NCBI GenBank assembly: GCA_018702955.1
Contig: JABJEK010000007.1
Span: forward strand, 1-44,571
Direction: 5' to 3'
From: Rhodospirillaceae bacterium
GTDB lineage: Bacteria; Pseudomonadota; Alphaproteobacteria; UBA6615
Length of the DNA: 44,571 nt
Below, piece after piece: positions 42,393 through 44,382 of this stretch. The notes beneath the pieces are model-generated. The model ran no database searches and was not told the origin of the DNA. It worked only from the letters and a program-made list of their open reading frames with translations. Numbering within the stretch: position 1 is the stretch's first letter; each line of letters starts with the position of its first letter. Both the position numbers and the translations under genes were made by a program.

Positions 42393-42409
42393 TGGCATGC
42401 AGATTGCTC
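42393..42409 (+). promoter_or_regulatory. Sigma-54 promoter P1
   Basis: TTGGCATGCAGATTGCT: the -24 GG (42394-42395) and -12 GC (42406-42407) are separated by exactly ten bases, and the flanks match TGGCAYG-N4-TTGCW. The predicted start of transcription is about 42419, i.e. at the ATG of the 70-codon gene, implying a leaderless or nearly leaderless message. A matching promoter lies 251 bp downstream, and a sigma-54 activator gene is the next gene. Confidence 0.6.
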
Positions 42410-42419
42410 TATAGACGGT

Positions 42420-42632
42420 ATGACCAACCTATCTCTCATCCGTGGACGCGATCACGACGTCGCCAATGATATTGGCCACTCTGATGCGGACCGCGAGGCC
42501 ATGCGCAGCTGGATCGACATGCTGCGAAAGGAAGCCCTGAACCTTCGTTCCGAGGCACAACACATGCTGAAAGTCGCGGAAGAGGCGGATACGCTGGCCG
42601 GCCGCATCGATTTACAGCTGAAAAGCCAATAG
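42420..42632 (+). CDS. Small helical protein of unknown function
   Basis: 70 residues from ATG 42420. The second half is a continuous charged helix with heptad-like spacing (REAMRSWIDMLRKEALNL, QHMLKVAEEADTLAGR), probably a coiled coil. No motif recognised. No ribosome-binding site is evident, which fits a leaderless transcript from the sigma-54 promoter P1; an internal ATG at 42501 is a weaker start. The stop is 11 bp before the second sigma-54 promoter. The inverted repeat GCCAAT-GAT-ATTGGC (42462-42476) lies inside it. Confidence 0.6.
   Translation: MTNLSLIRGRDHDVANDIGHSDADREAMRSWIDMLRKEALNLRSEAQHMLKVAEEADTLAGRIDLQLKSQ
42462..42476. promoter_or_regulatory. Inverted repeat, possible upstream activator site
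   Basis: GCCAAT-GAT-ATTGGC, perfect 6-bp arms with a 3-bp spacer, centred about 180 bp before promoter P2 (centre 42652). Enhancer sites of sigma-54 activators usually lie 80-200 bp upstream. A half-site-like GGCCAATA also occurs at 42357, before P1. It lies within a coding sequence, so chance is possible. Confidence 0.3.
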
Positions 42633-42643
42633 ATGAACGCAAC

Positions 42644-42660
42644 TGGCACGCCGGTTGCAT
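42644..42660 (+). promoter_or_regulatory. Sigma-54 promoter P2
   Basis: TGGCACGCCGGTTGCAT: identical to the strong consensus TGGCACG-N4-TTGCW. The -24 GG is at 42645-42646 and the -12 GC at 42657-42658, ten bases apart. The predicted transcript start is about 42670, one base before the first hairpin of the candidate small RNA, exactly where a promoter for it should be. Confidence 0.8.
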
Positions 42661-42669
42661 CGTTAGGGG

Positions 42670-42746
42670 TAGGACACTTGAGTGTGTTTGTGTCCTCCTC
42701 CCCCAATAAGGCGGCGTCCCAATCAGGTCGCCGCCTTTATTGTTTT
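42670..42746 (+). ncRNA. Candidate sigma-54-dependent small RNA with anti-Shine-Dalgarno motif
   Basis: About 77 nt. A 5' hairpin AGGACAC (42671-42677)/GTGTCCT (42690-42696) is followed by a single-stranded C-rich linker. The C-rich run CCTCCTCCCCC (42694-42704) is complementary to Shine-Dalgarno sequences. It ends in a terminator hairpin AAGGCGGCG/CGCCGCCTT (42708-42716 with 42729-42737, extended by CAAT/ATTG) and TTTT. Start and end are set by promoter P2 and the terminator. The layout matches Vibrio Qrr RNAs, which lie beside luxO, but the sequence differs. C-rich anti-SD loops are known from alphaproteobacterial cuckoo RNAs. Probably an Hfq-dependent translation repressor. Confidence 0.6.
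42704..42746 (+). terminator. Terminator of the candidate small RNA
   Basis: Stem of nine perfect pairs AAGGCGGCG (42708-42716)/CGCCGCCTT (42729-42737), lengthened by CAAT (42704-42707) against ATTG (42739-42742) around one bulged T, with a 12-nt loop. It is followed by TTTT (42743-42746). It lies just after the C-rich linker. On the minus strand it could also help terminate the response-regulator transcript. Confidence 0.8.
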
Positions 42747-42924
42747 CAGACCAGAGACACAGAAATAATAATTAAATCAAATGCTTAGAATAATTCATCA
42801 GTCTGCATTCGCGCACCGAACCGCATCAGCCCCGGTTGGCCTGCTCGCACCTTCACGGTCGCAGATTGAGACACAAAATCGCATTGTGAAACCTGTTGTT
42901 GCAGCCAAAATGCGAGCCGATGGA

Positions 42925-44382
42925 CTACGACAGGTCGGTCGTCGGGTCCGAGGACGGGTCGGTTTCGTCCCATTTGGCGCGTTTGCGGTACAGGGTCGCG
43001 GGCGAAACTTCGAGATACGTCGCCGCCATCCGCACATTGCCATCACACAATTCGATCGCCCGCTCGATCGCGTCGCGTTCCATATCCTCCAGCGGCCGGA
43101 TGTCATCCGGCACATTGGCGGCGGGTATCGCGCCAGGCGTATCGGCGGCGTGCAGCGACGACGCCATTTGCGGCGCCGCGCCATCCAGGCCTCCGCCGCC
43201 CGGCGCCAAACTCGCAATCTGCGGCGGCAGCATCGCGGCCGGCACTTCGCCGCCGGGATTCATCACCACCATGTTGCGGACGACGTTTTGCAACTCGCGA
43301 ACGTTACCCGGCCAGTCATAGCTGACAATTGCCGCGGCGGCGTCCCGGGAGAAGCCGTCGAATTCCTTCCGTTCTTCCTTCGAATATTCTCGCAGGAAGT
43401 GCTCGGCCAGGATCAGAGGGTCGTCCTCGCGCGTGCGAAGGGGTGGTACCGAAACCGGGACGACATGGAGCCGGTAGAAAAGGTCTTCGCGCAGCCGGCC
43501 CTCGCGTACTTCGAGTTGCGGATCACGGTTGGTCGCACAAACGATGCGGGTGCTGACACTGCGGGTCTTGCTCTCGCCGACACGCATGAATTCCTGGGAT
43601 TGCAGGAAGCGCAGAAGTTTGACCTGGAGGTCGAGCTTCATTTCGCCGATTTCGTCGAGGAACAGCGTCCCGCCATCGGCCGCTTCGACCGCCCCGACCC
43701 GGTCACTCGTCGCGCCGGTGAAGGCGCCGCGCACATGGCCGAACAATTCACTTTCCATGAGCTCCGCGGGAATAGCACCACAATTGATCGGGACCAGTTG
43801 GCCACGCGAACGGCGGCTGTATTGATGAATTGCCTGGGCACACAACTCCTTGCCGGTGCCGCTTTCGCCAGTGATGAAGACCGTGGCGTCGCTGGGCGCG
43901 GCGGATTCGAGAATTCGGTAAAGGTTCAGCATCGCCAGAGAGCGGCCGACGAAATCGCCGAAGGAATCCCGATCGATTTCTTCGCGGTATTCGGCCACGA
44001 TTCCGGCGAGCTGCGCGGCCTCGATGGTATTGGCGACGGTGACGCGAAGTCGATCGGCACTGAACGGTTTGACCAGGAAGTCCTTGGCGCCCGCCTGCAT
44101 GGCCGAGACGGCGATACCGATCGAGCCATGCGCAGTAATCACGACGACAGGAATCGGGATTTCGTTGTCCGACAGATGCTTCAGGATATCCATCCCGTTC
44201 ATGTCGGGCAGTTCGAGGTCCAGCAGCAGCATGTCCGGCGCGCCGTTGGCGATCTGGTCCAGGGCATCGCCGCCGGTCTCGACATGGGTAATGTCGTAGG
44301 GCTGGGCGCGCAGATATTCCTGATAGGTGTGGGCAAGGGGCAACGTGTCCTCGACCAGAAGTATTTTCGGACGTGTGCTCAT
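42925..44382 (-). CDS. LuxO-like sigma-54-dependent response regulator (NtrC family)
   Basis: 485 residues from ATG 44382 (GGAG about 9 bases upstream; the frame runs further to 44424). Receiver domain with Asp55 in LLLDLELPD and Lys105; AAA+ domain with Walker A GESGTGKE (172-179), GAFTGA (219-224, the sigma-54 contact) and Walker B LFLDE (240-244); Fis-type HTH 444-470. Many segments read like Vibrio LuxO, including SADRLRVTV, ESAAPSDATVFITGESGTGK and VCATNRDPQLEVREGR. A 60-residue Pro/Ala linker precedes the HTH. No LuxU-like gene is adjacent. The nearby sigma-54 promoters and small RNA are probable targets. Confidence 0.93.
   Translation of the reverse strand: MSTRPKILLVEDTLPLAHTYQEYLRAQPYDITHVETGGDALDQIANGAPDMLLLDLELPDMNGMDILKHLSDNEIPIPVVVITAHGSIGIAVSAMQAGAKDFLVKPFSADRLRVTVANTIEAAQLAGIVAEYREEIDRDSFGDFVGRSLAMLNLYRILESAAPSDATVFITGESGTGKELCAQAIHQYSRRSRGQLVPINCGAIPAELMESELFGHVRGAFTGATSDRVGAVEAADGGTLFLDEIGEMKLDLQVKLLRFLQSQEFMRVGESKTRSVSTRIVCATNRDPQLEVREGRLREDLFYRLHVVPVSVPPLRTREDDPLILAEHFLREYSKEERKEFDGFSRDAAAAIVSYDWPGNVRELQNVVRNMVVMNPGGEVPAAMLPPQIASLAPGGGGLDGAAPQMASSLHAADTPGAIPAANVPDDIRPLEDMERDAIERAIELCDGNVRMAATYLEVSPATLYRKRAKWDETDPSSDPTTDLS

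Follow-up and report, generated by a model that had tools for sequence, protein, structure and literature searches.

A gene for a LuxO-like response regulator, a bacterial enhancer-binding protein, converges on a small-RNA cassette in a 44,571-nucleotide (nt) stretch of DNA (the window) from the Rhodospirillaceae bacterium assembly GCA_018702955.1 (3.37 Mb, 92.8% complete). The cassette comprises a predicted small RNA (sRNA), its sigma-54 promoter P2, and a second promoter of the same type, P1, before an open reading frame of 70 codons (ORF70). Five homologous loci were compared: that of the window's own genome (G000), those of G002 and G006 from the same genus, and those of G011 and G022 from another genus of the same family. 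The DNA homologue search covered 60 genomes (own and relatives), and covariance-model and protein searches covered a family set of 24 genomes and a class set of 385. It is proposed that the locus is probably a LuxO/sigma-54/sRNA module with a new, non-Qrr RNA family. Its features, with positions in the window, are:

42644-42659, + strand: P2, exact sigma-54 promoter of the small RNA, TGGCACGCCGGTTGCA (sequence match, conserved)
42670-42745, + strand: predicted small RNA whose first base is uncertain by one or two positions
42671-42677 and 42690-42696, + strand: 5' hairpin I, AGGACAC with GTGTCCT, invariant TGAGTG in the loop (folding, alignment)
42694-42702, + strand: anti-Shine-Dalgarno motif CCUCCUCCC, first three bases in hairpin I, the rest in the linker
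42697-42703, + strand: linker, predicted to be unpaired (folding)
42704-42742, + strand: terminator hairpin (II), GC-rich, followed by UUU (folding, alignment)
42859-42892, - strand: putative enhancer (upstream activating sequence), tandem inverted repeats GTTTCACAATGCGA-N6-GTCTCAATCTGCGA, 20 base pairs (bp) apart, a conserved block
42925-44382, - strand: LuxO-like response regulator
42393-42408, + strand: P1, sigma-54-type promoter TGGCATGCAGATTGCT, before ORF70
42420-42632, + strand: ORF70, its ATG at about +2 of P1, predicted to be read from a leaderless mRNA
40066-42285, - strand: reductive-dehalogenase-like Fe-S protein of 739 residues, divergent from P1

The small RNA and the two promoters

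The DNA search returned four homologues of the small RNA (G002, G006, G011 and G022), the remaining matches having expectation values (E) of 0.002 or weaker. With the covariance model five of the 24 family genomes scored at E 1e-18 or better and the other matches at 0.008 or weaker, a conservation which argues that the RNA is more than a product of chance. Three class genomes gave strong scores, each of them from this family; since 12 candidates were scored per genome under strict filters, weak homologues could be missed. Matches at E 0.01 came from 22 class genomes, and the 19 outside the family were rejected as RNA homologues because by sequence they are GC-rich terminators; weak second matches inside the family were terminators or sequences unlike the RNA. 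Scanning named GTDB genomes for the pattern yielded seven records, namely three metagenome-assembled genomes of the family (uncultured Alphaproteobacteria bacterium K_MB42, Rhodospirillaceae bacterium SI072_bin63 and Alphaproteobacteria bacterium HXMU1420-4) and four unrelated ones (a Dehalococcoidia, a Natribacillus and two Phycisphaerales), which were set aside, having no C-rich linker or promoter.

Between genomes the RNA is 83-94% identical and the following 100 nt are 35-55% identical. The core AGGACAC-N-TGAGTG..GTGTCCTCCTCCCCCAA is unchanged in all five homologues, and the hairpin I loop is 11 or 12 nt long, a variation that speaks against a coding role. Folding z-scores range from -4.9 to -7.2 across the five, with none of 200 shuffles as stable in any case. 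A simple terminator scan of 41500-44571 found none (2.5 expected in shuffles), a miss taken to be due to the tail UUUAUUGUUUU under the T-run rule of the scan. The cassette of 5' hairpin, C-rich linker and terminator that the initial annotation had described is thus present, and both stems and the linker are kept across two genera. Its further idea of a Qrr-type circuit holds for the sigma-54 promoter and the position of the RNA gene beside luxO, not for the RNA itself: no Rfam family matched at its gathering score, Qrr included, and no Qrr appeared at E up to 5. The opposite strand gave a weak GibS match of 30.1 bits (E 0.032), where the gathering score is 115; it stems from the terminator hairpin and was discarded.

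The sigma-54 promoter claimed upstream of the RNA was confirmed as an exact match. The pattern TGGCAC-N5-TTGCW occurs twice in the assembly (reversed control, 1); one site is P2, and the other lies 5' of urtA (TIGR03407, 573.6 bits, above cut-off), a sensible sigma-54 target. Relaxing the pattern to Y at position 6 and any final base gave 11 genome sites versus 5 in the reversed control. The -24/-12 spacing of P2 is canonical in four of the five loci, the G011 spacer having one additional base, and the distance from the -12 C to hairpin I is 12 nt in every locus. Counted from that C, the predicted first base of the transcript is near 42670, with hairpin I beginning one base later. Elsewhere in the window, a further sigma-54-type site, TGGCACGTGACTTGC, stands at 16131-16145 on the - strand, and further along on the same strand lies a probable hybrid sensor kinase, named by eye (12823-15558).

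The second promoter, P1, has the form TGGCAY-N5-TTGC in all five loci, 249-253 bp before P2. The initial annotation began its segment on this site, although the site had no place in its reasoning. ORF70 encodes 70 residues in each of the five loci, and its ATG starts 13 nt past the -12 C of P1 in four of them (14 or 17 in G022), so close that the mRNA would start at or within a few bases of the start codon; a leaderless mRNA is therefore predicted. Substitutions by codon position number 2, 2 and 15 between G000 and G006 and 7, 4 and 12 between G000 and G002. A protein search with ORF70 gave 18 matches, 14 of which cover 99% or more of the query, and no Pfam domain. On the far side of P1, the second half of the 739-residue protein is dehalogenase-like (TIGR02486, 160.6 bits, just over the cut-off of 160.35), and homologues stand beside the cassette in G006, G011, G022 and G002, which makes all five genomes with our own.

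The regulator, the repeat and the wider cluster

The regulator is LuxO-type, as judged from its sequence. Its domains are a receiver, a sigma-54 AAA+ module in which the sequence shows GAFTGA, and a Fis-type helix-turn-helix. LuxO (NF041946) was the best of 116 NCBIfam models, with 572.9 bits versus 379.2 for NtrC and an alignment over profile positions 1-462 of 463, and the nearest solved structure is LuxO 5ep0, by a wide margin (424 bits versus 306). The strong resemblance to LuxO first noted for this protein therefore stands by domains, best model and best structure, short of the NCBI equivalog cut-off, which is 800 bits. In V. cholerae LuxO, according to a mutational study, S423, I425, Y426, R427, K428 and L429 are critical in the recognition helix (PMC11407668). 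The corresponding helix here reads SPATLYRKR and, aligned by eye, shares the Y, R and K. The other enhancer-binding homologues are 33-41% identical to the regulator. The convergent orientation of regulator and cassette was also borne out.

LuxO-like genes of 51-58% identity occur in 30 further genomes of the class set (E 1e-150 or better), so that other modules may be findable. At 29 other luxO-like loci (28 of the 32 other class matches, and G018), a sigma-54 site was present in some and this RNA in none. Vibrio-type LuxO sites with at most one mismatch precede the luxO-like gene in four of these 29 loci; there are seven such sites, six of them from one family, against a mean of 0.48 and a maximum of 4 in 300 shuffles. 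In L076, L077 and L081, which belong to one family, TTGCANNNTGCAA-type pairs 27 bp apart stand 82-111 bp before the luxO-like genes, perhaps reflecting autoregulation by a LuxO-type protein. In L071 and L074, of another family, sigma-54 sites flank the luxO-like gene on both sides; the upstream one, at a distance of about 255 bp, is divergent and apparently leads into a reading frame. A divergent sigma-54 site upstream of luxO is the layout of luxO-qrr1 in Vibrio.

The putative enhancer is placed between the RNA and luxO, 115-117 nt past the RNA end, in all five loci; in G011 it precedes an HlyD remnant. Nineteen of its 34 columns are invariant, compared with a mean of 5.9 and a maximum of 10 in a control of 100 trials in which the two other-genus sequences were shuffled and the best block was scored. 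The intergenic DNA around it is not conserved, and only half of the first repeat survives in G011 and G022. A role as the luxO terminator was rejected (folding z +1.05). The LuxO enhancer TTGCAWWWTGCAA and the SypG enhancer TTCTCANNNTGMDWN have a common 5-N3-5 layout as described in PMC10162802, and the sequence of the present repeat loosely resembles these sites. Set against the Vibrio LuxO site, the five loci carry a diverged, GTYTCANNNTGCGA-like repeat, whose binding by the regulator is putative.

In the window's own contig the sequence ends just upstream of luxO and differs there from the relatives described next. In G006, the genes divergent from luxO encode an RTX-repeat protein of 2111 residues, a hybrid histidine kinase of 899 residues that includes a receiver and an Hpt domain, and the outer-membrane, ABC and HlyD components of type I secretion. 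The same cluster genes are present in G022 on two contigs, with a kinase that is a 74% orthologue of the G006 protein, which places kinase, Hpt and LuxO-like genes together in two genera. In G011, HlyD sequence starting at residue 134 (80% identical) comes immediately after the repeat, and we infer that luxO through HlyD codon 133, the segment missing there, was lost in one deletion. The luxO frame of G002 (G002:C44, L127:80-913) is without residues 1-201, which hold the receiver and Walker A; either a deletion or a fault of the assembly could account for this, and inspection by eye shows, ahead of the shortened gene, the sequence found upstream of the window's luxO. Across the 24 family genomes, the RNA occurs with a close luxO, full or truncated, in four and with luxO gone in one; no genome has a close luxO without the RNA, and 19 have neither, the 53% luxO homologue of G018 being taken as absent in this count.

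A sigma-54 site was also seen 5' of a Wzz-domain polysaccharide gene in L150 (G006:C3:183313) and L141 (G022:C44:5292), with GTCTCAATGTGCGA 430-446 bp upstream of the gene, inside the Poly_export coding sequence and in the same codons in both genera. Since the repeat lies in Poly_export coding sequence and a search for that gene in G000, G002 and G011, run without a positive control, was empty, the site was not accepted as marking a regulon member and is left as a lead.

Proposed circuit and alternatives

The motif CCUCCUCCC is invariant in the five homologues. The rhizobial alpha-r14 sRNAs carry the identical motif, one in each of three hairpins, and in NfeR1 it blocks the ntrB ribosome-binding site, as reported in PMC10746234 and PMC3927594; the mRNA-binding part of Qrr1 is described as the single-stranded stretch between its first two hairpins (PMC3927594). 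Identity with the alpha-r14 motif and the Qrr1-like linker position together suggest that the RNA would repress mRNAs led by a Shine-Dalgarno sequence. In the five genomes 140 near-complements of the seed were found (reversed control, 59), five being the RNA itself. Twenty of the 88 examined lie just before frames of at least 80 codons, some of which are possibly spurious. The own genome encodes Hfq (L216 7423-7686), which NF001602 recognizes at 128.5 bits against a cut-off of 95.

It is proposed, with a probability of roughly 0.6, that a LuxO-type regulator and two sigma-54 promoters would give rise to a leaderless ORF70 mRNA and a translation-blocking small RNA of about 75 nt. The regulator is likely to activate both promoters, P2 of the small RNA among them, from the putative tandem enhancer. 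A hybrid kinase with Hpt, of the kind seen in two relatives, would phosphorylate the regulator, which would then bind the repeat and open P1 and P2. The RNA would pair with ribosome-binding sites through the CCUCCUCCC seed, perhaps with Hfq, and the ORF70 mRNA, having no Shine-Dalgarno sequence, would escape its sister RNA.

Several results weigh against this proposal. The seven pairs of hairpin I show zero variation and hence zero covariation support; in the terminator, one pair has changed in a compensatory way (U-A to G-C in G022), three changes affect one side only and one pair is lost in two of the five genomes, and since 122 of 500 shuffles equal the covariation counts of the whole structure, covariation is no proof of it. 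In the covariance-model comparison advised in the initial annotation, stems, linker and luxO adjacency are kept across two genera and the promoter spacing in four of the five loci, with hairpin I devoid of covariation. Measured from the P2 start, the repeat is some 190-220 bp away on the downstream side rather than upstream, and it differs from the LuxO enhancer. A window scan for the SypG motif with one mismatch gave 6 sites against 4.4 expected, no better than chance, so that the resemblance alone is weak and the conservation is the evidence. A genome scan with GTYKCANNNTGCGA, which was derived from this locus, gave 4 matches, 2 being this pair, and 6 in the reversed control, which leaves single sites without weight. 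A search of the own genome for the kinase, at E 1e-90 and with 38 of 55 candidates scored, found none.

A further point on this side is that luxO is truncated or gone in two of the five genomes (G002 and G011, respectively) and the RNA, P1 and the repeat persist in both, as would be expected if the RNA were sigma-54-dependent but driven by another enhancer-binding protein (NtrC or SypG-like), with the LuxO-like gene a mere neighbour. Each of the five genomes has at least three further enhancer-binding protein matches, and in V. fischeri the SypG and LuxO enhancer sites overlap according to PMC10162802. Against such an activator stand the low identity of those other homologues to the regulator, the joint absence of RNA and close luxO from the 19 family genomes, and the P2 spacing that is off by one base in G011, the only locus where it is, as expected after loss of the activator; we regard this explanation as unlikely. 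An origin of the segment as the 3' end and terminator of the ORF70 mRNA, with P2 fortuitous and no independent RNA, would suit the common orientation of P1, ORF70 and the RNA within about 350 bp, and sRNAs derived from untranslated regions are common. It is hard to reconcile with the placement of P2, canonically spaced in all but one locus and at a fixed distance from hairpin I in all, and with the conservation between genera of the RNA (83-88%) compared with ORF70 (52-57%), and we consider it highly improbable.

What the RNA does raises a separate alternative, namely that it is mainly a sponge or a binder of Hfq or another RNA-binding protein and does not pair with ribosome-binding sites. The TGAGTG loop and hairpin I are as strictly conserved as the linker, a third of the seed sits in the hairpin I stem, and no conserved target was found among the 88 near-complements, no two of the 20 frames being homologous. 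The last two points count against our proposal as well. The seed is nevertheless identical to that of NfeR1, which was shown to act on ribosome-binding sites (PMC10746234), and a sponge or protein-binding role seems rather improbable to us. A bolder version of the proposed circuit, in which a LuxO-type regulator outside the Vibrionaceae would have independently acquired an anti-Shine-Dalgarno RNA that mimics the 16S tail and serves as a broad repressor, and would fire an RNA-immune leaderless mRNA from a twin promoter, is conceivable but on balance doubtful. If true, the pair would form a self-insulated switch between leadered and leaderless translation.

For the proposed circuit itself, a sigma-54 leaderless mRNA next to an anti-Shine-Dalgarno RNA yields a clear, testable prediction. 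To our knowledge, only the Vibrionaceae are known to couple LuxO to a small RNA under sigma-54 control. A literature search gave no alphaproteobacterial case among the matches listed (titles and abstract beginnings; most subscription journals lie outside its scope). Finding that place in the circuit taken by a second, unrelated RNA would show that evolution keeps the wiring, a LuxO-type activator with a sigma-54 sRNA, and that the RNA is exchangeable. New here are P1 before a leaderless-type ORF70, the conserved tandem repeat, the motif identical to that of alpha-r14, and the cluster of RTX, kinase and type I secretion genes.

Comparison with known systems

With the alpha-r14 and NfeR1 (cuckoo) sRNAs of Rhizobiales the RNA shares the anti-Shine-Dalgarno motif, carried here once, at the hairpin-linker border of an RNA with two hairpins, and there in each of three hairpins. 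According to PMC10746234 the promoter of NfeR1 has no sigma-54 signature, in contrast to the sigma-54 promoter here. The control of qrr1 by SypG and LuxO in V. fischeri, as presented in PMC10162802, is similar in its two enhancer sites of 5-N3-5 layout; those sites are upstream of qrr1, whereas here they are downstream of the RNA, and the SypG motif is matched with one or two mismatches.

From the LuxO-Qrr system of Vibrio the present locus differs in that its RNA fits no Qrr model, its repeat is diverged and on the downstream side, and a second promoter with a leaderless small open reading frame is present. The luxO-qrr arrangement is divergent in Vibrio and convergent here. The two systems are alike in having a LuxO-type regulator, a sigma-54 promoter and a small RNA gene adjoining luxO, an RNA built of a 5' hairpin, a single-stranded linker and a terminator with a 5-N3-5 type repeat nearby, and the genes of a kinase-Hpt relay, which are seen here in two relatives.

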